This document shows positions 1,143-54,747 of a stretch of 64,000 bases of DNA, piece after piece. Location: assembly GCA_036504035.1 (NCBI GenBank), contig DASXVV010000012.1:62001-126000 (forward strand), written 5' to 3'. The stretch comes from Candidatus Deferrimicrobiaceae bacterium. Its GTDB lineage: Bacteria > Desulfobacterota > Deferrimicrobia > Deferrimicrobiales > Deferrimicrobiaceae. Made by a program: the position numbers and the translations under genes. Position 1 is the first letter of the stretch. The number at the start of each line of letters is the position of its first letter. The notes beneath the pieces are model-generated. The model worked only from the letters and a program-made list of their open reading frames with translations, searched no databases and was not told the origin of the DNA.

Positions 1143-3257
1143 CTACTTCTTGCCCGTCGTGAAGCTGAACGTCAGGGCGGCCGCGGTCGGGTTCCCCGCC
1201 AGGTCCTTCACCGCACCCGCGGGCACCGTCACCGTATATTTCGTCAAAGCGATAAGCTGGGCTCCCGTCGAGGCGAGCCGGACCTGCAGGACGGCCGGGT
1301 TCGTCGTGCTCACCGCTGCCGTTATGGCCACCGGGACCGTCTGGTTCTTGTTGTTGACGTAGGTCAGCGTGATTCCGCCGACGTTGTTCCCCTTCGCGAT
1401 GCTCTCGCTGAACGTGATCGCGATCGATACGCCGCGGGAAACCGCTGTCGCCAGATTTGCAGGGTCTGTGGCGACCTTCGACGGTGCCACCGTGTCGATC
1501 TTGATCGGCTGGGCGTTAAACCCGAAGTTGTACGCATAATCCATGGCGCGGTAGTAGAGCGTGGTTGCCCCCGGGATGGAGTAGACGAAGGGGTAGGCGT
1601 AGCCCGTCCAGGTGACGTTGTCCAAGGAATATCCCTTGGAAAGGATCCCGCTGATGCTGTCGGTTCCCGACAGCGTGACCGTGACGGCGGACCGGTACCA
1701 GCCGTTGTCGCCGGTCGTGCCGGTGAGGACGATCGAGGCCTGTGGCGGCGTCTGGTCGACCCTGTAAAGCCGCGTTTGCACCGTCTCGAAGTTGCCCGCC
1801 TTGTCCACGGAACGGTAACGCAGATTGCTCTCCCCCTCGTGGGGGTAGGTAAAGGGGCCGGTGTACATCGTCCAGTTGACCCCGTCCCAGCTGTACTCGG
1901 TGTAATCCACACCGGTGCCGGTCAAGGTGTTGTCGATCCCGTAATCCGTCGCGGAGAGTGTCACCGTCGGAGGCGTCGGGTACCAGCCATTGGCGGCGTG
2001 GTTTCCGATGACGATACAGGAAGTGAAAGGGGGACGGGCGTCGAGCTCGTCGGCCCCTATGTCGACGATCGCATTCGCGGAAAGCGCGTGCCCTTGCTGG
2101 ATCCGGGCCTCGCCGTCGATGTCCTCTGTTGCGGAAACGTACGTGTTGTCTCCCGCATCGACGCAGGGCGACGTCGTCTTGATGTGGTAATCGCCACCTT
2201 CCGGGTCGATGAAGAGCGGGTCTGCCGAGATGTTCCCCAAATCGGGGAAGGGACCCCAATTGGCCCCGGGATAATAGTAATAATCGGCGGCGCTGTTTCC
2301 GAAGATATTGTTGTTGAAGGGCCTGACCGCCCGCATGTCGGACCGTTGGAGTCCGTAGAGGTTGAAGGCGATGATGTTGTTCGCCGCCGTCGGGTTGCCG
2401 TATCCGCTGGAGATTCCCGCCCCCTGGTTCGACACGATCGTGTTGTTGACGATGACCGGATTGTCCGAATATCCGGTGCGGATGCCGGTACCGTTATTCC
2501 GCACGATGACGTTGTTGTGGATCAGCGTCCGGGAGTAGCTCTCGGAACAGATGCCGGCACCGTACTGGACACTGCCTTCGTTGCCCTCGATCCGGTTGTA
2601 ACCGATTGTCGCGTAGCCACCGAAGTAAGTTCCGGCATAGACCAGGTAGATCCCGGCGCCGTTCAACGCGTTGTTGCCTTCGATCACGTTGCCCTCGATC
2701 ACTGCGGGAGAGTTCCCGATGTAGATTCCCCCGCCGCTCGAGGCCAGATTGCCGGTGATGATGTTATGGGTGGCGATGAGCGTCGCGTTGTCACAGTAGA
2801 TGCCGCCCCCGAACGTGTTGCCCGCCATCGTCCCGTTGCCATTGCGGATGGTGAAGCCGTCAAGGATGTTGTTCCCGGAACCGGCATTCCGGATCGAGAA
2901 GACGCTGGCAAAGGTCGTCCCGGGGATGTTGTCTCCGGACACGACCGTCGGATTGTTTTCCGGATCCCTAAAATTACGTCCCGTCTCGATGCCCGCGAAC
3001 CCGCCGTAGAGCGCTACGCCGTCCTTCATAACGACATTCTCGACGTAGAGCCCCTGTTTCACCCACACCTCGTCGCCGGGGGCGGCGGCATCGACTCCGG
3101 CCTGGACGTTGCTGAATGCCGTCTGCCACGAGAGGCCGTCGTTGCCCGGAACGGCGTTATTGTCGACGTACCGAGTCGTGGCCGACGCGATGTTCGCGAG
3201 GGCCATGCTCAGGAGCAGCGCGGCTAACATCGAGCCAAGGATAGTTCTCGTCTTCAC
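1143..3257 (-). CDS. Secreted right-handed beta-helix protein with Ig-like C-terminal domains
   Basis: The 704-residue product has an N-terminal signal peptide (hydrophobic stretch about residues 7-22, ending ANIASA) followed by YVDNN..GNDGLSW, typical of secreted parallel beta-helix proteins. About residues 30-395 are repeated N-I-I/N-T-I-V turns with GGGIY motifs, the beta-helix itself. Two tandem domains follow, each with NGWY, VTVTLS, W and YRS.D.AGN signatures (about 410-590). The last ~110 residues match the SbsA/Big_5 Ig-like pattern (SKVATDPANLATAV ... GNPTAAALTFSFTT). The GTG start at 3257 is preceded by AGGAGG at 6-base spacing; an upstream ATG at 3308 lacks such a site. Probably exported or surface-bound, possibly polysaccharide-binding or adhesive; no catalytic residues can be assigned. 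Confidence 0.8.
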   Translation of the reverse strand: MKTRTILGSMLAALLLSMALANIASATTRYVDNNAVPGNDGLSWQTAFSNVQAGVDAAAPGDEVWVKQGLYVENVVMKDGVALYGGFAGIETGRNFRDPENNPTVVSGDNIPGTTFASVFSIRNAGSGNNILDGFTIRNGNGTMAGNTFGGGIYCDNATLIATHNIITGNLASSGGGIYIGNSPAVIEGNVIEGNNALNGAGIYLVYAGTYFGGYATIGYNRIEGNEGSVQYGAGICSESYSRTLIHNNVIVRNNGTGIRTGYSDNPVIVNNTIVSNQGAGISSGYGNPTAANNIIAFNLYGLQRSDMRAVRPFNNNIFGNSAADYYYYPGANWGPFPDLGNISADPLFIDPEGGDYHIKTTSPCVDAGDNTYVSATEDIDGEARIQQGHALSANAIVDIGADELDARPPFTSCIVIGNHAANGWYPTPPTVTLSATDYGIDNTLTGTGVDYTEYSWDGVNWTMYTGPFTYPHEGESNLRYRSVDKAGNFETVQTRLYRVDQTPPQASIVLTGTTGDNGWYRSAVTVTLSGTDSISGILSKGYSLDNVTWTGYAYPFVYSIPGATTLYYRAMDYAYNFGFNAQPIKIDTVAPSKVATDPANLATAVSRGVSIAITFSESIAKGNNVGGITLTYVNNKNQTVPVAITAAVSTTNPAVLQVRLASTGAQLIALTKYTVTVPAGAVKDLAGNPTAAALTFSFTTGKK

Positions 3258-44487: not shown

Positions 44488-46302
44488 ATGGGAGTGTCCG
44501 TCCCGTCCAGGGAAAATCTCGTGCTGCTTTCGGGAAACGAGGCCGTCGCGCGCGGCGCTTTCGAGGCGGGCGTCAAGGTCGCCTCGGCCTACCCCGGAAC
44601 GCCCAGCACCGAAATCCTCGAGAATTTCGCGAATTACGAAGGCGTCTACGCCGAGTGGGCCCCCAACGAAAAGGTGGCGGTCGAGGTGGCGATCGGCGCC
44701 TCGATGGCGGGCGTCCGGGCGCTTTCCACGATGAAGCACGTCGGCGTCAACGTCGCTGCCGACCCGATCTTCACGGTCTCCTACACCGGCGTCCGGGGCG
44801 GGCTGGTCATCGTCGCGGCCGACGACCCCGAGATGCATTCCTCGCAAAACGAGCAGGACAGCCGCCATTACGCGGTCGCCGCCAAGATCCCCATGCTCGA
44901 GCCGTCCGATTCGGCCGAGGCGCTCGCGTTCACGCGGCTGGCTTTCGAACTGTCCGAGCGTTTCGACACGCCGTTCTTCCTGCGCTCCACGACGCGCATC
45001 GCCCACGCCAAGGGGGCGGTGAAGCTCGGCCTGCCGGTGGTACCGCCGGTCGTGCCGGGCATCGTCCGGGACCCGGCCAAGTGGGTGATGCTGCCGATGA
45101 ACGCCAAGCGCCGCCACGTCCTCGTCGAGGAGCGGACGCAGGCGCTGGTCGAATACGCCGAAACGTCGGGGATCAACCGGGTCGAGCCCGGCAGCCGTGA
45201 GCTCGGCATCGTGACCGGCGGCGTCGCCTACCAGTACGTCAAGGACGCGTTCCCCGAGGCGTCGGTACTCAAGCTGGGGATGGCGTGGCCCTTGCCCGAG
45301 AAGCTGATCCGCGACTTCGCGTCGACCGTCGACCGCCTGGTCGTCGTCGAGGAGCTCGACCCGCACATCGAGCAGCACGTCAAGGCGCTGGGCCTCGAGG
45401 CGCAGGGGAAAGATCTCATCCCCATCTGCGGCGAGCTCGACCCGAAGATCGTCCGCGAGGGGATCACCGGCGTGAAGACCGCCCTCCGCGCGCCCGAGAC
45501 CGTGCCCGGCCGCCCGCCGAACCTTTGTCCGGGCTGCCCGCACCGGGGGCTCTTCTTCGTCCTCAACAAGCTCAAGGCCGTCGTGTCCGGCGATATCGGC
45601 TGCTACACGCTGGCCGCGCTGCCACCCTTGAACGGCATGGACCTGTGCGTCTGCATGGGCGCCTCGATCGGCGCCGCGCACGGCATCGAGAAGGCACTGG
45701 GCAAGGAGGCGCACGGGAAGGTCGTCGCGGTCATCGGCGACTCCACCTTCCTGCACTCGGGCATCACGGGCCTCATCGACATCGTCTACAACCGGGGCAA
45801 TTCCACGGTCATCATCCTCGACAACCACATCACAGCGATGACCGGGGCGCAAGAGAACCCGTCGACGGGCAAGACGCTCCAGGGCGAGAAGACGCACGAG
45901 ATCGACTTCGTCGCGCTGTGCAGGGCGATCGGCGTCGAGCACGTTTACCCCGTCAACCCCCACGACATGGCGGCCACCGAGGAAGTGCTGCGGCGCGAGA
46001 TTGCGCGCGAGGCGCCGTCGGTCGTCATCACCCAGGCGCCGTGCGTCCTGCTTCCCGACCACCGCCGCCGCGTCAAGCACGTCTACGAGGTGCTTCCCGA
46101 CCTGTGCGTGGGCTGCAAGGCGTGCTCGAAGCTCGGGTGCCCCGCCATCGAGTGGGTGCCGTTCACCCCGGAGGACGCGGCGCTGGCCGGCAAGAAGCCG
46201 ACGCAGCAGGGGATGACGCGGATCAATCCGCTGATGTGCGACGGATGCAACCAGTGTCCGCCGTTGTGCAAATTCAAGGCGATCGTGGGGAAAAAGTCGT
46301 GA
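44488..46302 (+). CDS. iorA: Indolepyruvate:ferredoxin oxidoreductase, alpha subunit
   Basis: Oxidatively decarboxylates aryl pyruvates to aryl-acetyl-CoA with ferredoxin; cytoplasmic. 604 residues: N-terminal pyrimidine-binding domain ([28 protein letters not shown]), a middle domain, the TPP-binding domain ([14 protein letters not shown] ... [15 protein letters not shown]), and a C-terminal ferredoxin part with [13 protein letters not shown] and [11 protein letters not shown] binding 4Fe-4S clusters. ATG 44488 is the first codon; a GTG at 44494 has better spacing to GGGGA. First gene of a long operon. Confidence 0.95.
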
Positions 46303-46901
46303 GCATGACCAGCGGAAACATCTTCCTGGCGGGCGTCGGCGGGCAGGGGACGCTCCTGGCGTCCGAGCTGCTCTCCGAGGCGTTCCTGCATTCCGGCTAC
46401 GACGTGAAGAAGAGCGACGTGCACGGCATGGCACAGCGGGGCGGCGCGGTGACCACGCACATCCGGTTCGGCGCGCGGGTGTATTCCCCGCTGATCGAGG
46501 CGGGAACAGCCGATCTGCTGATCGCATTCGAAAAGATGGAGGCGCTCCGCTTCGTCCATTTTCTGGCGCCGGGCGGCGTCGTGGTCGCCAACACGCAGGA
46601 GATCCAGCCCCCTTCCGTGCTCCGGGGCATCGAGCCCTATCCCGCCGACGTCGAGGCGCGGCTGCGCGCCGCGGCCGGGCGGGTCTATCTGGTCGACGCG
46701 CTGTCCGCGGCGCTGGCGCTCAAGGAGGTCCGCGCGGTCAACGTCGCCCTGGTCGGGGCCGCATCGCATTTCCTGCCGCTGCCGGCGGAGGCCTACGAAG
46801 ACGCGCTCCGGCTGCGGCTGCCGCCGAAGATCCTCGATGTCAACCTGGCCGCCTTCCGGGCGGGGCGCGAGCTGCCGGCTTCGCAAGGAGGGACCGCATG
46901 A
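46299..46901 (+). CDS. iorB: Indolepyruvate:ferredoxin oxidoreductase, beta subunit
   Basis: 200 residues: gamma-type PFOR domain beginning [20 protein letters not shown] with [19 protein letters not shown] and [17 protein letters not shown], the IorB fold that completes the TPP site. The GTG at 46299 overlaps the iorA stop (GTGA) and has GGGG 8 bases upstream; ATG 46305 is the alternative. It overlaps the next gene as ATGA. Confidence 0.93.
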
Positions 46902-48199
46902 TCTGGAACGACGAGTTCGAGACGCTGCCCCGCGAGGCGCTCCAGGCGCTCCAGCTAAAGCGGCTGCGCGCCATGGTCGACCGCGTCTTTTCCGCGGTGC
47001 CCTTCTATCGCGCGAAGCTGTCCGACGCGGGCTATGCCCCGGGATCGATCCGCTCGCTTTCCGACCTGTCCGCCCTGCCGTTCACCACCAAGGAAGACCT
47101 GCGCGTCACCTACCCGTTCGGCTTGTTCGCCGAGCCGCTCGAGCGCGTGGTCCGCGTTCATGCCTCTTCGGGCACGACCGGCAAGCCGGTGGTCGTCGGC
47201 TACACCAAGCGCGACATCGACACCTGGGCCGAGCTGATGGCCCGGACGCTGTCGTGCGGCCACGCGACCCGCAAGGACATCATCCAGGTCGCCTACGGCT
47301 ACGGCCTGTTCACCGGCGGCCTGGGCGCCCACTACGGCGCCGAGATGCTGGGCGGCACCGTCATCCCCATGTCGGGCGGCAACAACAAGCGCCAGATCAT
47401 GCTCATGCAGGATTTCGGTTCCACCGTGCTGATGTCCACCCCTTCCTACGCGCTCAACCTGGCCGAGCTGATGACCGACGACGGCATCGATCCCGCGACG
47501 CTCGCGCTCCGGGTCGGCTTCTTCGGCGCCGAGCCCTGGAGCGAGGCGATGCGCCTCGAGATCGAGAAGAAGCTCAAGATCGACGCGATCGACATCTACG
47601 GCCTGTCCGAGGTGATGGGACCCGGCGTGGCGTCCGAGTGTCTCGAGGAGAAGCACGGGCTCCATGTCTTCGAGGACCACTTCATCCCCGAGGTCATCGA
47701 CCCCGCGACGGGCAAGGTGCTCCCGTGGGGCGAGACCGGCGAGCTCGTGTTCACCACGGTGACGAAGGAGGCGTTCCCGGTCATCCGCTACCGGACCCGC
47801 GACATCTCGCGCCTCATCCCCGAGCCGTGCCGCTGCGGCCGCACGCACATGCGCATGGAGCGCGTCTCCGGACGCACCGACGATATGCTCATCATTCGGG
47901 GCGTCAACGTCTTCCCGTCCCAGATCGAGTCGGTGCTGATGGCGGTCGAGGGCGTCGAGCCACACTACCAGCTCATCGTCTCGCGCGAGGAGGCGCTCGA
48001 CGTCCTCGAGGTGCAGGTCGAGATCGACGAGTCGATCTTCTCCGACAAGGTCAAGAGCCTCGAGGGGCTGTCGAAGCGCGTCGAGCACACGATCAAGGAC
48101 CTGCTCGGCATCTCGTGCAAGGTCAAGCTCGTCGAGCCGAAGGCGATCCAGCGCAGCGAGGGCAAGGCCAAGCGCGTGATCGACAACCGCAAGCTGTAG
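46898..48199 (+). CDS. paaK: Phenylacetate-CoA ligase (copy 1)
   Basis: AMP-forming activation of phenylacetate and other aryl acetates. 433 residues with [79 protein letters not shown] and the C-terminal [10 protein letters not shown], all PaaK. It shares a start/stop overlap with iorB, so products of IOR and substrates of PaaK are handled together. A second copy lies at 54781. Confidence 0.94.
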
Positions 48200-48209
48200 G
48201 GTGCCGGGG

Positions 48210-48253
48210 GGCGATCGGCCAACGGTCGCTTCCGCGCCGGCGAGCCGATCGCC
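48210..48253 (+). other. Hairpin after paaK copy 1
   Basis: GGCGATCGGC (48210-48219) pairs perfectly with GCCGATCGCC (48244-48253), beginning 10 bases past the paaK stop. No U-tract follows, so it may stabilise the upstream mRNA or mark a processing point instead of terminating. Confidence 0.45.
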
Positions 48254-48331
48254 GATTGTGGATGTCCGTCGCGCGGGGAACGGGGTGGATTTTACCGAGG
48301 CTTCACGCTCCACGGCGTACGCCAAAGCGGG

Positions 48332-48468
48332 GGCCCTGGACGGGGGCCTCTAAGGTGATCCGGGAGGCATGGATGCCGGAGGATCGCCGAAGGGAGTTGC
48401 AGGCGGCCCATGGATGGGCCGACAAGACGTCCCCCGGGAAGGGCGCCCCCGCGTGGCGCCTAGCCGGG
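48332..48468 (+). ncRNA. Candidate structured RNA or leader with UGGA-loop hairpins
   Basis: In the 330-base gap before the ACT gene I can fold: 48332-48348 (GGCCC/GGGCC, loop UGGACGG); 48354-48388 (GGUGAUCC with GGAUCGCC, one G-U) enclosing 48366-48377 (GGCA/UGCC, loop UGGA); 48405-48420 (GGCCCA/UGGGCC, loop UGGA); and 48433-48468 (CCCGG/CCGGG) enclosing GGCGCC/GGCGCC (48442-48460). The octamer CATGGATG appears at 48368 and 48409, matching the CANGGANG core bound by CsrA/RsmA. It may be the leader of the ACT gene or a free small RNA. No known riboswitch was recognised. Confidence 0.35.
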
Positions 48469-48529
48469 AAGCTACAGGCCGAGCCAAAATGGAGCGGTGA
48501 CGATCCCATATGATGACGGAGGTGGCGCG

Positions 48530-48961
48530 ATGAAGGTCGAGCAGATATCGATATTCCTCGAGAACAAGTCCGGGCGGCTGGCCGAGGTGACGGCGACGCT
48601 GGCGGCGGCGGGCGTGAACATCCGGGCGCTCTCGCTGGCCGACACGGCCGACTTCGGCATCCTGCGTCTGATCGTCAACGATTCGGCGAAGGCGAAGGAA
48701 GTGCTCAAGGCGGGCGGCTTCACGGTGGGCAAGAACGAGGTGGTCGCGCTCGAGGTGCCCGATAACCCGGGCGGCCTCTCCGGCATCCTCAAGCTGCTCG
48801 ACGGGGCGGGCATCAACGTCGAGTACATGTACGCCTTCGTCCAGCGCTCCGGCGACAACGCAATCATCATCTTCCGCTTCGACGACATCGACAAGGCGAT
48901 CGAGACGCTGATCGGAGCGGGCGTCCGGGTGCTCAAGGGCGAGGAAGTCTACGCGCTTTAA
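48530..48961 (+). CDS. Tandem ACT-domain protein
   Basis: 143 residues, two ACT domains: [36 protein letters not shown] and [36 protein letters not shown] pairs bind amino acids and regulate enzymes or transport. Position within an ior-paaK-liv operon makes an aromatic or branched amino acid sensor likely. ATG 48530 with GGAGG 7 bases upstream. The leader is unusually structured. Confidence 0.9.
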
Positions 48962-48992
48962 CGCGAACAGGAATGCACGGAAGGAGACGGCG

Positions 48993-50141
48993 ATGAAGGG
49001 AAGGAAAGGGATTTGTGCGGCGCTGCTGGGGGGCGCGCTGCTGTTGGGGGGCACGGCGTTCGCCGCCGAGCCGATCAAGATCGGGGCGATCTTCTCGGTG
49101 ACCGGCCCGGCCGCGTTCCTGGGCGAGCCCGAGCGCAACACGGCCAAGATGATGGAAGCCGAGATCAACAAGGCCGGCGGCCTCCTGGGACGCAAGGTCG
49201 AGGTCGTCGTCTATGACGACGAGAGCGACGCGACCAAGGCGGTGACCGCGGTCGACCGGCTGATCAAGAAGGACAAGGTGGTCGCGATCATCGGGCCCAG
49301 CACGTCCGGCAACACGTTGGCGATCATCCCGAAGGTCGAGGCGGCGAAGATTCCGCTCATCTCTTGCGCGGCAGCCAAAAAGATCAACTTGCCGGTGAAG
49401 AAGTACGTGTTCAAGACCGCACAGAGCGACGCGATCTTCGTGAAAAAGATCTACCAGCATGCGAAGAAGAACAGCTGGACGAAGGTGGCGCTGCTGACGG
49501 CTTCCGACGCGTACGGTTCCGCGGGCCGGGAAGACCTCAAGGAGCTTGCCCCCAAGTTCGGCATCACGATCGTGGCGGACGACGTTTTCGGGCCCAAGGA
49601 CACCGACATGACCGCGCAGCTCGCCAAGATCAAGGGGACCGCGGCGCAGGCGATCATCTGCTGGGGCACCAACCCGGGGCCGGCGGTCGTCGCCCGAAAC
49701 CGGGCGCAGCTGGGCATCAAGACACCGCTCTACATGAGCCAGGGGGTCGCCTCCAAGAAGTTCATCGAACTGGCCGGAAAGGAGAACGTCGAGGGGATCT
49801 TCCTGCCCGCGGGGCGGATCCTCGTCGAGGACCAGGTCGATCCGAAGCACCCGCAGAAGAAGGTCCTGTCCGGCTACTGCCGCGATTTCGACAAGAAATG
49901 CCGGCAGCCGGTCTCGGCGTTCGGCGGCCACGCCTTCGATGCGATGAAACTGATCGAGATGGCGATCCGCAACGGCAAGTCCGCCGATCCGGCCTCGATC
50001 CGCAACAACATCGAGAAAATCCGCGGCTTCTGGGGCATCGGCGGCGAGTTCAACCTGTCGGCGGTCGATCACAGCGGGCTGACCGAGGACTCGATGGTCA
50101 TGGTGAAGATCGTCAAGGGGGACTGGGAACTGTTGAAATAA
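48993..50141 (+). CDS. livK: Branched-chain/aromatic amino acid ABC transporter, substrate-binding protein 1
   Basis: 382 residues. Signal peptide about 1-24 (ICAALLGGALLLGGTAFA), then IKIGAIFSVTGPAAFLGEPE, VVVYDDESDATKAV, VVAIIGPSTSGNTLAI and SDAYGSAGREDLKELA, a type I LivK-like fold (Peripla_BP_6). Periplasmic. The ligand is not readable, but the neighbours favour aromatic or aryl acids. It is followed by a same-length paralogue. Confidence 0.9.
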   Translation: MKGRKGICAALLGGALLLGGTAFAAEPIKIGAIFSVTGPAAFLGEPERNTAKMMEAEINKAGGLLGRKVEVVVYDDESDATKAVTAVDRLIKKDKVVAIIGPSTSGNTLAIIPKVEAAKIPLISCAAAKKINLPVKKYVFKTAQSDAIFVKKIYQHAKKNSWTKVALLTASDAYGSAGREDLKELAPKFGITIVADDVFGPKDTDMTAQLAKIKGTAAQAIICWGTNPGPAVVARNRAQLGIKTPLYMSQGVASKKFIELAGKENVEGIFLPAGRILVEDQVDPKHPQKKVLSGYCRDFDKKCRQPVSAFGGHAFDAMKLIEMAIRNGKSADPASIRNNIEKIRGFWGIGGEFNLSAVDHSGLTEDSMVMVKIVKGDWELLK

Positions 50142-50187
50142 ACGGCGATTCCGCAAGGAGAGCCGTATCCGGGAGGAGAGACGGACC

Positions 50188-51336
50188 ATGAGGGGGATAA
50201 GGAAGGTCATGGCGGCGCTGTTGGGGACGGCGCTGCTGACGGGGGGGGCCGCATTCGCCGCCGAGCCGATCCGGATCGGCGCGATCTTTTCGGTGACCGG
50301 GCCGGCGGCGTTCCTCGGCGAGCCCGAACGGAACACGGCCCGGATGCTCGAGGAGGAGATCAACAGGCAGGGTGGTCTCCTGGGCCGCAAGATCGAACTC
50401 GTGGTCTACGACGACGAGAGCGACCCGACCAAGGCAGTGATCGCGGTCGACCGGCTGCTTAAGAAGGACAAGGTCTCGGCGATCATCGGGCCCAGCACGA
50501 CCGGCAGCACGATGGCCATTGCGCCGAAGGCCGAGGAGGCGAAGGTGCCGCTGGTCTCTTGCGCTGCGGCGATCGACATCGTCTCACCCGTCCGGAAGTT
50601 CGTGTTCAAGACGCCGCAGAGCGACGTCCTCGCGGTACGGCAGATCTACAGGCATGCGAAAAAGGCGGGCATCCGGAAGATGGCGATCCTGACCGCCTCC
50701 GACGCGTTCGGTGCGGCGGGGCGCAAGGAGCTCAAGGAGCTCGCGGGCAAGTTCGACATGATGATCGTCGCGGACGAGGTGTTCGGACCGAAGGACACCG
50801 ACATGAACGCGCAGCTCGCCAAGATCAAGGGGACGCCGGCGCAGGCGATCGTCTGCTGGGGGACCAACCCCGGCCCTGCGGTCGTCGCCCGCAACCGGAC
50901 GCAGCTCGGCATCGCGATGCCGCTCTACATGAGCCACGGCGTCGCCTCCAACAAGTTCATCGAGTTGGCGGGCAAGGAAAACGCCGAAGGGATCCTGCTC
51001 CCCGCCGGTCGGTTGATCGTCGACGAGCAGGTGGCGGCGAAGCACCCGCAGAAGAAGCTGCTCGCGAAATACGCCGGCGACTACGAGAAACGCTTCAAGG
51101 CGCCGGTCTCCTCGTTCGGCGGCTACGCCTACGACGCCCTGTCGCTGCTGGCGCACGCCATCAAGGCGGGCAAGTCGGCCGAGCCGGCCGCCGTCCGCGA
51201 TGCCCTCGAGAAGACCAGGGGTTTCTGGGCCACGACGGGCGAGTTCACCTTCACGCCGGCCGACCACAACGGGCTGACCGAAGAGGCTTTCGTGATGGTC
51301 CGGATCACCAAGGGCGGATGGGAGATGCTCAAGTAA
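50188..51336 (+). CDS. livK: Branched-chain/aromatic amino acid ABC transporter, substrate-binding protein 2
   Basis: 382 residues, the same length and layout as the upstream gene (IRIGAIFSVTGPAAFLGEPE, VVYDDESDPTKAV, FGPKDTDMNAQLAKIKGTPAQAI). A tandem duplication with divergence in the middle and C-terminal lobes, which may give the two proteins different ligands for one permease. Good purine-rich ribosome site (GGGAGGAGA) before ATG 50188. Its TAA abuts livH. Confidence 0.9.
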   Translation: MRGIRKVMAALLGTALLTGGAAFAAEPIRIGAIFSVTGPAAFLGEPERNTARMLEEEINRQGGLLGRKIELVVYDDESDPTKAVIAVDRLLKKDKVSAIIGPSTTGSTMAIAPKAEEAKVPLVSCAAAIDIVSPVRKFVFKTPQSDVLAVRQIYRHAKKAGIRKMAILTASDAFGAAGRKELKELAGKFDMMIVADEVFGPKDTDMNAQLAKIKGTPAQAIVCWGTNPGPAVVARNRTQLGIAMPLYMSHGVASNKFIELAGKENAEGILLPAGRLIVDEQVAAKHPQKKLLAKYAGDYEKRFKAPVSSFGGYAYDALSLLAHAIKAGKSAEPAAVRDALEKTRGFWATTGEFTFTPADHNGLTEEAFVMVRITKGGWEMLK

Positions 51337-52218
51337 GTGCCGTTTTCCTCGCTGCTCCAGTTCTTCGTGTCCGGGGTGACCGTGGGCGCCACGTATGGGC
51401 TCACGGCCCTCGGTTTCACGATGATCTACAACACGACCGGCATCATCAACTTCGCGCAGGGCGAGTTCGTCATGCTGGGGGGGATGCTGGCCGTGTTTTC
51501 GATGACCTGGGGAGGATTGCCGCTGCCGGCGGCGGTTCCTCTCGCCGTGCTCCTGGTGACCGCGATCGGCGTCGCGGTCGACCGGCTGACCATCCGGCCG
51601 ATGCGCGGGCGCCCGCCCGTCACGCTGGTCATCGTCACGATCGGGATCTCGATCCTCCTTCGCGGCGGCGCGATGCTCGTCTTCGGCAAGGACACCCACT
51701 CCCTTCCTCCCTTTTCCGAGGGGGCCGCGATCCCGATCGCCGGCGCCTCGCTTTTGCCCCAGACGCTCTGGGTCGTCGGGATCACGATCGCGGTCGTGGC
51801 GGCCATGAAGATGTTCTTCGACCGGACCATCACGGGGAAGGCGATGCTCGCCTGCGCCTGCGACCGAAGGGCCGCATCGCTCATGGGGATCAACGTCGAC
51901 GTCATGGTGACGCTGTCGTTCGCCTTCTCGGCGCTGGTCGGGGCGCTCGGAGGCGTGATCCTGGCGCCGATCACGCTGACCGCTTACGATGTCGGCGTCC
52001 TGCTGGGCATCAAGGGGTTCGCCGCCTGCATTCTCGGCGGCCTCGGCAATCCCTTCGGGGCGGTCGCGGGGGGTCTGATCATCGGCGTCCTCGAATCCAT
52101 GGGCGCGGGCATCCTGTCCTCGGGCTACAAGGACGCGATCGCGTTCGTCATCCTGCTGGCGCTCCTGTTCCTGCGCCCCTCCGGCCTTTTTGGCAAGGCG
52201 TCGGCGGACCGGGTCTAA
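51337..52218 (+). CDS. livH: Branched-chain amino acid ABC transporter permease LivH
   Basis: 293 residues, about eight membrane helices, with GLTALGFTMIYNTTGIINFAQGEFVMLGG, the N-terminal LivH signature, and FAACILGGLGNPFGAVAGG near the C-terminus. GTG start at 51337 directly after the livK2 stop. Forms the translocation pore with LivM. Confidence 0.92.
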   Translation: MPFSSLLQFFVSGVTVGATYGLTALGFTMIYNTTGIINFAQGEFVMLGGMLAVFSMTWGGLPLPAAVPLAVLLVTAIGVAVDRLTIRPMRGRPPVTLVIVTIGISILLRGGAMLVFGKDTHSLPPFSEGAAIPIAGASLLPQTLWVVGITIAVVAAMKMFFDRTITGKAMLACACDRRAASLMGINVDVMVTLSFAFSALVGALGGVILAPITLTAYDVGVLLGIKGFAACILGGLGNPFGAVAGGLIIGVLESMGAGILSSGYKDAIAFVILLALLFLRPSGLFGKASADRV

Positions 52219-52232
52219 GGAGCGACCGCGCA

Positions 52233-53240
52233 ATGTCCTCTATCGGGTCGAAAGGGGCATTGGCCGGGCTGGCGGCGTTCGCGGCCGCGATAGTCCTGGC
52301 CCCTTTCCTACTGCCCGACTACTACCAGTCGGTACTCATCGTCGCCGGCTTCTTCGCCATCCTGTCGATGGGGCTCAACCTGCTCCTGGGATACGCGGGG
52401 CAGATCTCGCTCGGGCACGCCGCCTTCTACGGGCTGTCGGCCTATGCGAGCGGCATCCTCACCGCCACTTATCACTGGCCCGTGCCGGCCGGGGTCGCCG
52501 CGGGCGTCCTGCTCTCGGGCGTCACCGCCGCGCTGATCGGCATTCCCACGCTCAAGCTCAAGGGACACTACCTCGCGATGGGAACGCTGGGTTTCGGCGT
52601 CATCGTCTATATCGTGCTCAATGAGGCGGTCGGGCTCACCGCCGGGCCGTCGGGCTTCACCGGGATCCCGCGCCTCTCCGCCTTCGGCCGGACGTTCACC
52701 TCCGACCGGGAATACTATTTCATCGTCTGGGGAATCGCCTTCCTGCTGTTCGTCCTTGCGCAGAACCTGGTCCACTCGCGGATGGGGCGCGCGCTCCGGG
52801 CGATCCATACGAGCGAGTCGGCCGCGTCGGTCCTCGGGATCGACGTGCCCCGCTACAAGGCGTTCGTCTTCGTGCTGTCGGCGGTCTACGCAGGGATCGC
52901 AGGCGCGCTCTACGCCCACTTCGTCACCTTCGTATCGCCCGGATCGTTCAGCTTCAACGCCTCGGTGCAGATCGTGACCATGGTGGTGCTGGGGGGAATG
53001 GCGTCGCTCTGGGGCGCGCTGGCGGGCGCGGTCTTCCTGACCGTGCTGCCCGAATGGTTACGGGCGATCGAGAACTACGACATCCTCATCTACGGCGCCA
53101 TCCTCATCCTGACCATGCGCTTCCTGCCGGGCGGCTTGGCCGAGGGGGCGTGCCGACTTTTGTCGCGGGTGCGGCGCCTCTTCCGAGGGAAGAAGGCCGA
53201 CGCCGCGGTTTTGCCTGATGCCGGAAGGGAGGACGCGTGA
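52233..53240 (+). CDS. livM: Branched-chain amino acid ABC transporter permease LivM
   Basis: 335 residues, about nine helices, with SMGLNLLLGYAGQISLGHAAFYGLSAYA, GHYLAMGTLGFG, RMGRALRAIHTSESAASVLGID and MVVLGGMASLWGALAGAVFLTVLPE, all LivM. AAGGAG precedes ATG 52233. Overlaps livG (GTGA). Confidence 0.92.
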   Translation: MSSIGSKGALAGLAAFAAAIVLAPFLLPDYYQSVLIVAGFFAILSMGLNLLLGYAGQISLGHAAFYGLSAYASGILTATYHWPVPAGVAAGVLLSGVTAALIGIPTLKLKGHYLAMGTLGFGVIVYIVLNEAVGLTAGPSGFTGIPRLSAFGRTFTSDREYYFIVWGIAFLLFVLAQNLVHSRMGRALRAIHTSESAASVLGIDVPRYKAFVFVLSAVYAGIAGALYAHFVTFVSPGSFSFNASVQIVTMVVLGGMASLWGALAGAVFLTVLPEWLRAIENYDILIYGAILILTMRFLPGGLAEGACRLLSRVRRLFRGKKADAAVLPDAGREDA

Positions 53241-54010
53241 CCTCTTCCGCACCCTTTTTCAGCGGGGAGGGGATCACCCTCCGCTTCGGCGGCGTCACCG
53301 CGCTGCACGACGTCGCTTTTTCCGTGGCGTCCGGGACGGTCCATGCGATGATCGGGCCGAACGGCGCGGGCAAGACCTCGCTGTTCAACGTGATCACCGG
53401 CTTCTATGCCCCCGACGCCGGGACGGTCCTGCTCGACGGGGAGACGCTTTCGGGGCGGCCGCCCCACGCAATTGCGCAGAGGGGCATCGTCCGCACCTTC
53501 CAGAACCTGGAGATCTTCACCAATATGACGGTGCTCGAGAACGTGCTGACCGGGGCGCACTTGTCCGGGAAATACGGACCGCTCGAATTCTTCCTGAGGA
53601 CGCCCCGCTATTTCCGCGAGGAGCGCCGGCTGCGCGACGAGGCGATGGCCGAACTCGACTTCGTCGGGCTTGCGGGGGAGGCTGCGCTCCCGGCGGGGCA
53701 GCTCCCCTTCGGATCGCAGCGGCTGCTCGAGATCGCCCGCGCGCTGGCCGCTCGCCCCCGGCTGCTGTTGCTCGACGAGCCGGCGGCCGGTCTCAACATC
53801 CGCGAGACCGCCGCGCTGGGCGCGCTGATCCGCCGGATCGTGACGCGCGGCATCACGGTCCTGATGGTCGAGCACGACATGGCGCTCGTCATGGACATCT
53901 CCGACCGGGTGCTCGTCCTCAACTACGGCGAGGTGCTGGCCGAGGGCACGCCGGTCGAGGTCCAGCGCAATCCCGCGGTCGTCGCGGCCTACCTGGGCGA
54001 GGAGGGCTGA
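53237..54010 (+). CDS. livG: Branched-chain amino acid ABC transporter ATP-binding protein LivG
   Basis: 257 residues. Walker A GPNGAGKTSLFN, LSG-like LPFGSQRLLEIARAL (Q/G changed from the usual LSGGQ), Walker B LLLLDEPAAGLN, and the C-terminal tail of LivG (PVEVQRNPAVVAAYLGEE). GTG start overlaps livM. The signature loop reads PAGQLPFGSQ, common in LivG. Energises transport with LivF. Confidence 0.92.
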   Translation: MTSSAPFFSGEGITLRFGGVTALHDVAFSVASGTVHAMIGPNGAGKTSLFNVITGFYAPDAGTVLLDGETLSGRPPHAIAQRGIVRTFQNLEIFTNMTVLENVLTGAHLSGKYGPLEFFLRTPRYFREERRLRDEAMAELDFVGLAGEAALPAGQLPFGSQRLLEIARALAARPRLLLLDEPAAGLNIRETAALGALIRRIVTRGITVLMVEHDMALVMDISDRVLVLNYGEVLAEGTPVEVQRNPAVVAAYLGEEG

Positions 54011-54018
54011 CACATTCG

Positions 54019-54747
54019 ATGCTGCGGGTGAAGAACCTCCAGGTGCACTACGGGATGATCCACGCGCTCCGGTCGGCGTCCGTCCACGTGAAGGAAAAGG
54101 AGATCGTGGCGCTCATCGGCGGCAACGGCGCGGGCAAGACGACGCTTTTGGCCGCGATCTCCGGACTCGTCCGCCCGACCTCGGGGGAGATCGCGCTCGA
54201 CGGCGCCGGGATCACGACCGAAAAGCCCGACCGGATCGTCCGGAAGGGGATCGCCCATGTGCCCGAGGGGCGGCACGTGTTCAAGCCGCTCTCCGTCGAG
54301 GACAACCTGCTGCTGGGAGCGTACCATCGGTACACATGGCGGGCTGCGGCGTCGATCCGGGACGAGATCGAACAGCTCTACGGGTTATTCCCCGTGCTGG
54401 GACAGCGTCGTCGGCAGGCAGCCGGGACGTTGTCGGGCGGAGAGCAGCAGATGCTGGTCATCGGCCGTGCGCTGCTGTCGCGGCCGAAGGTGCTGCTGCT
54501 TGACGAGCCGTCGATGGGGCTTGCGCCGAAGGTGATCCGGGAGATCTTCGAGCACGTGGCGCGTCTGCGCGCCGATCGAGGCATGACCATTCTTCTGGTC
54601 GAGCAGAACGCGCGGGCGGCGCTGTCGATCTCCGACCGCGGCTACGTGCTCGAGACGGGCCGCGTCGTGCTTCACGGCAGCTCCGAGGAGCTGCTCGCCA
54701 ACCGCGACGTCCAGCGCGCATACCTGGGGCGGGACGCCGGGAAATAG
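54019..54747 (+). CDS. livF: Branched-chain amino acid ABC transporter ATP-binding protein LivF
   Basis: 242 residues: LQVHYGMIHALRSASVHVKEKEIVALIGGNGAGKTTLL, IAHVPEGRHVFKPLSVEDNL, LSGGEQQMLVIGRAL and LLLDEPSMGLAPKV, standard LivF motifs. Begins 8 bases after livG. Only one permease and ATPase pair serves the two binding proteins. Confidence 0.93.
   Translation: MLRVKNLQVHYGMIHALRSASVHVKEKEIVALIGGNGAGKTTLLAAISGLVRPTSGEIALDGAGITTEKPDRIVRKGIAHVPEGRHVFKPLSVEDNLLLGAYHRYTWRAAASIRDEIEQLYGLFPVLGQRRRQAAGTLSGGEQQMLVIGRALLSRPKVLLLDEPSMGLAPKVIREIFEHVARLRADRGMTILLVEQNARAALSISDRGYVLETGRVVLHGSSEELLANRDVQRAYLGRDAGK

Follow-up and report, generated by a model that had tools for sequence, protein, structure and literature searches.

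A dispersed two-hairpin RNA element with CsrA-type loops, and putative CsrA-titrating function, in the intergenic regions of Deferrimicrobiaceae

The window analyzed here is a stretch of 64,000 nucleotides from the genome of a Candidatus Deferrimicrobiaceae bacterium (source genome, G000; G001 and G002 are sister species of the same genus). Positions 44488 to 54747 carry a run of genes that resemble those for a two-subunit indolepyruvate ferredoxin oxidoreductase, a phenylacetate-CoA ligase (paaK), an ACT domain protein, and two tandem Liv-type binding proteins, and the run continues with Liv permeases and ATPases; it looks like a locus for degradation and uptake of aromatic and branched-chain amino acids. 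The gap between the ligase-like gene, which ends at 48199, and the ACT domain gene, which starts at 48530, is mostly filled by a structured RNA element roughly 165 to 190 nt in length (Table 1). The region folds better than all of 200 shuffled sequences (z = -3.69). Near this copy, a consensus scan of positions 48100-49050 recognized neither a sigma-70-like promoter nor an intrinsic terminator. Searches of Rfam, at the gathering threshold and at E 10, gave neither a riboswitch nor an sRNA match to the window copy, in agreement with the view, formed when the locus was read from sequence alone, that no known riboswitch fits.

Table 1. Parts of the element in the window (positions in the 64,000-nucleotide stretch)
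Feature	Position	Strand	Remarks
Whole element, type I copy (outer rod and core)	48295..48483	+	85-89% identical copies elsewhere in G000 over window ~48294-48485
Core: GGGGG/CCCCC helix (48342-48346 with 48431-48435), encloses two hairpin arms	48342..48435	+	Models R1 and R2
Outer rod, 5' strand GCGGGGG (partner CCCCCGC, 48446-48452)	48327..48333	+	MFE fold; both strands kept in type I copies
Arm 1: helix GGUGAUCC/GGAUCGCC (48354-48361 with 48381-48388), GGGA/GGA internal loop, hairpin 1 at tip	48354..48388	+	
Hairpin 1, GGCA-UGGA-UGCC	48366..48377	+	Loop UGGA 48370-48373; octamer CATGGATG 48368-48375
Hairpin 2, GGCCCA-UGGA-UGGGCC	48405..48420	+	Loop UGGA 48411-48414; octamer CATGGATG 48409-48416
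Conserved linker GGAGUUGCAGGC, 5' of hairpin 2	48393..48404	+	GUU pairs with GAC 48426-48428
Conserved linker GACAAGACGU, 3' of hairpin 2	48421..48430	+	CAAG.CGU nearly invariant

The sequence-only reading had described three hairpins with UGGA apical loops, two of them bearing an exact octamer 41 bases apart, in a region thought to be rich in GGA. The octamers and two of the hairpins hold, both octamers lying at hairpin tips and both hairpins being retained across 94 copies whose stems show compensatory changes, whereas the third hairpin and the GGA excess fail. In the conserved fold, the third UGGA (48337-48340) falls in an internal loop that separates the outer rod (GCGGGGG/CCCCCGC) from the inner helix (GGGGG/CCCCC), and the nested CCCGG/GGCGCC structure noted beside the hairpins belongs to the outer rod. 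Positions 48200-48531 contain 14 GGA trinucleotides, compared to 12.1 in dinucleotide shuffles (p = 0.26); the density is high relative to other 332-nt bins of the window because of composition, and the GGA in the ribosome site of the ACT gene is simply the Shine-Dalgarno sequence. The linker pairing, GUU/GAC in this copy, is GUC/GAC in most others; this helix (helix 7 of alignment A4) is paired in 96.7% of cells, and 3 of its 3 pairs have changed on both sides.

When the gap was used as a BLAST query, G000 itself yielded four more near-complete copies, with 85-89% identity, as well as fragments, and two congeneric species have many copies too. Covariance model R1 (98 nt, 32 pairs), built from type II copies, recovered 21 copies in G000, 16 in G001, 24 in G002, 22 in G012, and 12 in G010; model R2, built from 94 copies, recovered 21, 16, 25, 28, and 16 in these same genomes, with a further 24 in G018 and 5 in G021. 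The window core scores 53.2 bits against R1 (E 2.5e-7) and 71 bits against R2 (E 1.2e-10), where the E-values are rough and the relatives are mostly MAGs. The core is common to the copies but the outer rods differ: GGCGUACGCC..GCGGGGG in type I, GGGUGUCCCC/GGGGAUACCC in type II, and GCGUGCGAGCCGCCG..ACGGGGUGCCCC in copies of the G010/G012 type. Outside the family, R2 found no match among 297 genomes of the phylum, in a search with strict filters and few candidates scored per genome, from which distant or diverged versions could escape, and R1 found no copies in three csrA-bearing genomes (G025, G026, and G031). A coding explanation was tried and rejected, as core lengths of 93, 94, 95, 98, and 102 nt among the copies are incompatible with any reading frame, and the stems show covariation.

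Compensatory changes in relatives, the comparison named in advance as able to overturn the initial reading, are present. In the 91 distinct rows of the 94-copy alignment, standard pairs occupy 91.7% of pair cells (76.0% when shuffled), 28 of the 32 base pairs show changes on both sides (17.3 shuffled), and double-changed cells number 348 (90.6 shuffled); all measures are far lower in a control in which the partner was slid by 1 to 3 columns. Because the alignment had been fitted to the model, the pairing counts lean toward structure. Nonetheless, the structure is directly apparent from how large the effect is and from seed A3, which has no gaps. For example, the arm 1 helix of type I copies, GGYGAUCC/GGAUCGCC, becomes GGCUCGCC/GGCGAGCC in L005 and L006, with both strands changed. 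G-U pairs (130) exceed A-C mismatches (47), which indicates selection on the RNA strand that displays the GGA loops.

The loops are the most constant part of the element. The motif ANGGA is found in 114 of the 114 apical loops of the 57 best-scoring copies, on 18 and 25 distinct stems, and over all 94 copies it occurs in hairpin 1 of 91 (27 distinct stems) and hairpin 2 of 90 (32 distinct stems). As the 57 best copies score far above the threshold, this conservation is not an artifact of the search. The N of hairpin 1 is free (T in 45 copies, G in 40, A in 4, and C in 3), in contrast to the 98-100% conservation at each GGA position. SELEX has given the CsrA consensus RUACARGGAUGU, whose GGA lies in the loop of a hairpin (PMC4347634); judged on sequence, the pattern recognized by CsrA is a closed hairpin with a variable tetraloop position and then GGA. 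A CsrA-binding RNA should have an A(N)GGA apical loop, preferably CANGGAUG, and at least two such hairpins for dimer bridging, and each copy has two, a median of 41 nt apart; some copies are flanked by further hairpins. In 400 kb of G000 without copies, ANGGA-type hairpins are at chance level (3, compared to 2 for a control loop, both strands), and in 464 kb of this genome there is no excess of A.GGA. hairpins outside the element family. Thus, the signal belongs to this element.

The search for csrA in the source genome, also suggested from the outset, identified a single gene (G000:C9:429879-430034, 83.7 bits). The predicted protein is canonical, with the RNA-contacting residues L4, R6, H43, R44, and I47, and has N55 and a C-terminal extension typical of FliW-regulated CsrA; fliW adjoins csrA in G000, and the two genes are also adjacent in G001. 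CsrA of the FliW-regulated type has been reported without sponge sRNAs, and none has been characterized in Geobacter sulfurreducens (PMC13407953). The gene csrA was detected in 141 of the 297 genomes of the phylum. Within the family (24 genomes), the element is present in all 8 genomes with csrA (21, 16, 28, 16, 24, 5, 1, and 1 copies) and absent from 14 of the 16 without it (Fisher p = 6e-5, uncorrected for phylogeny); the two genomes with a single copy each are G009 and G014. Stated the other way, 8 of the 10 family genomes with matches have csrA, which was not detected in G002 and G004. G004 has one weak match. G002, a 96% complete MAG from the genus of the source genome, has 25 copies and no match to csrA or fliW; given the adjacency of these genes in G000 and G001, one gap in this MAG could hide both. 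In genus g9, G010 has csrA and 16 copies, and G015, G019 (75% complete), and G022 (61% complete) have neither.

Every copy in G000 sits in a gap between genes, as delimited by a simple GC3-based gene call, and relative to their neighbors the copies are sense, antisense, or in convergent gaps. The paaK-ACT gap holds one forward copy in G000, two tandem forward copies in G002, and one reverse copy in G001, and in same-family relatives with the same gene order (L030-L032) it is only ~25-90 bp long and has no element. A gap beside nitrogenase-like genes (nif names by inspection) is occupied in all three species of the genus. Because orientation, copy number, and neighbors vary, a turning-over dispersed element fits better than a leader of particular genes, and a dedicated switch for the ACT and Liv genes is unlikely. 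Of the close pairs in the genus (copies within 1 kb), 11 of 12 are divergent and 1 is tandem, although some are orthologous and hence not all are independent. An example of a divergent pair is L144:1355-1448 (-) and 1565-1662 (+). The close pairs inspected combine one copy with a type I outer rod and one of type II or III, as if forming a composite unit. The outer rods of one divergent pair are an estimated ~30 bp apart, so that separate sRNA promoters would hardly fit between them. We also considered that divergent partners might form a long-range duplex (-194 kcal/mol) and rejected this, since the local folds are more favorable (-106 and -118 kcal/mol).

Among described RNAs, the closest in form is TwoAYGGAY RNA (RF01731), which likewise has two AYGGAY-type hairpins in one closed structure and a tandem G-A in one arm; by inspection, type II copies of the element have a GA/GA mismatch below hairpin 1. 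RF01731 has been predicted to be a CsrA-binding RNA by Gardner and Eldai (PMC4333381), and is listed from gut metagenomes, Gammaproteobacteria, and Clostridiales but not from Deltaproteobacteria (PMC2864571). The model matches G000 (26.7 bits), G009 (27.0 and 25.6 bits), and G014 (25.0 bits), always over both hairpins and with alignment over model positions 45-113, and it has no match at the window copy. As all matches stay below the gathering score of 43 bits (the best are 26.7-27.0), we do not file the element as a member of this family. The loops belong to the TwoAYGGAY class but not to strict AYGGAY, G being common at the Y position. The element also differs in its short hairpin 2 (5-6 bp), in its conserved linkers GGAGUCGCAG and GCAAGACGU, and in being dispersed, often as divergent pairs, in 16-28 copies per well-populated genome. 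By analogy, it would work like TwoAYGGAY RNA, to which it may be related.

Other repeats with similar loops were encountered alongside the element or in relatives. A "type x" repeat of ~150 nt often adjoins it (L151:1741-1930 [-], L152:1660-1786 [-], L153:1699-1859 [-], and L153:1941-2030 [+]; also L200:749-903, L217:275-433, L208, and L212). This repeat has its own CANGGAUG hairpin and also a short GGA-loop arm (GCC-UGGAU-GGC with a GAA/GGGA internal loop), and it looks like another diverged CsrA-motif RNA. In genus g8 (G009, minus strand; L109:1516-1560 and L112:1516-1560), a compact unit with two close CAUGGAUG hairpins (GGCCAUGGAUGGCC AAGUGCCGCGG GCGCCAUGGAUGGCGC) was found via TwoAYGGAY and not via the element's own model. 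In arm 1 of one copy (L186:1024-1170; G010:C29:80423-80569) there is an insertion of ~54 nt, itself bearing two inverted hairpins of the CAUGGA type, CGCAUCCAUGCG and GCCGUCCAUGGC, as if a repeat had inserted into a repeat. Three weak 17-nt matches exactly 610 bases apart at G000:C2:153170-154406 suggest a 610-bp tandem repeat.

CsrA sponge RNAs have been described principally in Gammaproteobacteria. Like the element, CsrB, CsrC, RsmX, RsmY, and RsmZ carry more than one hairpin with a GGA loop, and they can accommodate several CsrA dimers. These RNAs have dedicated genes, a single one or a few, and each gene has many sites, whereas the element consists of many small, scattered two-site units and, at the window copy, has no promoter or terminator recognizable in the consensus scan. 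Amplification of CsrA-sponge copies is also seen in Pseudomonas, where rsmX-2 is a duplicated rsmX gene (PMC7911923), but there a dedicated sRNA gene has been duplicated, whereas the element occurs as dozens of dispersed intergenic copies in both orientations. We found no description of the element, or of dispersed CsrA-binding repeats, in the open-access literature, and it appears that no CsrA-binding sponge RNA has been described before in this deltaproteobacterial group.

The reading that we favor, as probable on balance, is that of a dispersed, multicopy CsrA-binding element that would titrate CsrA beside FliW. Several observations weigh against it: the 25 copies in G002, where csrA and fliW were not detected; the single copies in G009 and G014; the csrA-bearing genomes outside the family in which R1 found none; the lack of a recognized promoter or terminator near the window copy; the tight spacing of one divergent pair; and the FliW-regulated look of CsrA. 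The CsrA-type character proposed at first sight of the locus is strongly supported by comparison (invariant ANGGA loops, covarying stems, the presence of csrA, and co-occurrence with it), and binding of CsrA by the element is very probable. The other part of that proposal, control of amino acid uptake, is not supported, as the neighbors of the ~21 copies are unrelated genes and the copies face either way. The window copy is upstream of the ACT gene and of the branched-chain amino acid transporter genes, where a riboswitch or a leader that binds another ligand or a protein could be placed, but this reading is very improbable. There is no Rfam riboswitch match, the other copies have different neighbors, relatives with the same gene order lack the element, and its conserved part consists of GGA loops with no ligand-pocket pattern. 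In a leader, position and orientation should be conserved, but the orthologous gap varies among species in both the orientation and the number of copies. Given the dispersed copies, we consider this explanation largely refuted.

The main rival is a cis role of individual copies, in which each would recruit CsrA to its own mRNA and alter the stability or translation of that operon, with no global titration. The location of all G000 copies in gene gaps, the placement of several inside apparently codirectional runs (the window copy and the nitrogenase-like cluster, L143), and the continued occupancy of gaps in sister species all speak for such modules. Nevertheless, we regard this role as unlikely, as many copies (L149, L151, L152, L156, and L157) either are antisense to both neighbors or, lying in a convergent gap, have no gene downstream, and the paaK-ACT site has seen turnover of both orientation and copy type. 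Quite improbable, in our judgment, is a selfish or structural palindromic repeat of the MITE, REP, or BOX kind that spreads in intergenic DNA and whose loops have nothing to do with CsrA. Such repeats are likewise dispersed, palindromic intergenic units in both orientations, and the multiple copies at nonorthologous sites, the prevalence of divergent pairs, the likeness of copies within one genome, the resemblance of the closed outer rod to terminal inverted repeats, and the empty sites in relatives all fit this origin; inspection of the flanks revealed neither a helper transposase nor target-site duplications. However, covarying stems, loops with an invariant protein recognition motif, and the bias toward G-U over A-C point to selection at the RNA level, and a selfish repeat predicts no association with csrA, yet the element tracks this gene.

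Returning to CsrA titration, we infer that the copies are transcribed, that they bind CsrA, and that the outcome is titration rather than a local effect on the host mRNA. Once its intergenic region is transcribed, a copy would present two A-N-GGA-N hairpins on an outer rod with two arms, as two sites of high affinity, and one CsrA dimer would probably bridge both loops. Together, the ~20 copies (~42 sites in G000) could titrate free CsrA or determine the level above which it acts, so that translation of CsrA-repressed mRNAs would be raised or buffered alongside the protein antagonist FliW. That titration is the main role of the element seems to us the likelier case, with some reserve. More tentative, and possible rather than probable, is the full picture of a distributed CsrA titration system in Deltaproteobacteria, in which ~20 scattered, self-similar two-hairpin elements in intergenic or operon RNA would jointly buffer CsrA, spread and turn over in the manner of repeats, be absent from relatives without csrA, and coexist with FliW.

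If this is true, RNA-based control of CsrA would also operate in Deltaproteobacteria, alongside FliW, and could be divided among many small elements that resemble repeats; intergenic repeats would thereby be tied to a global regulator. The 2015 prediction regarding TwoAYGGAY-type RNAs would become directly testable, with natural variants of both loops and stems at hand.
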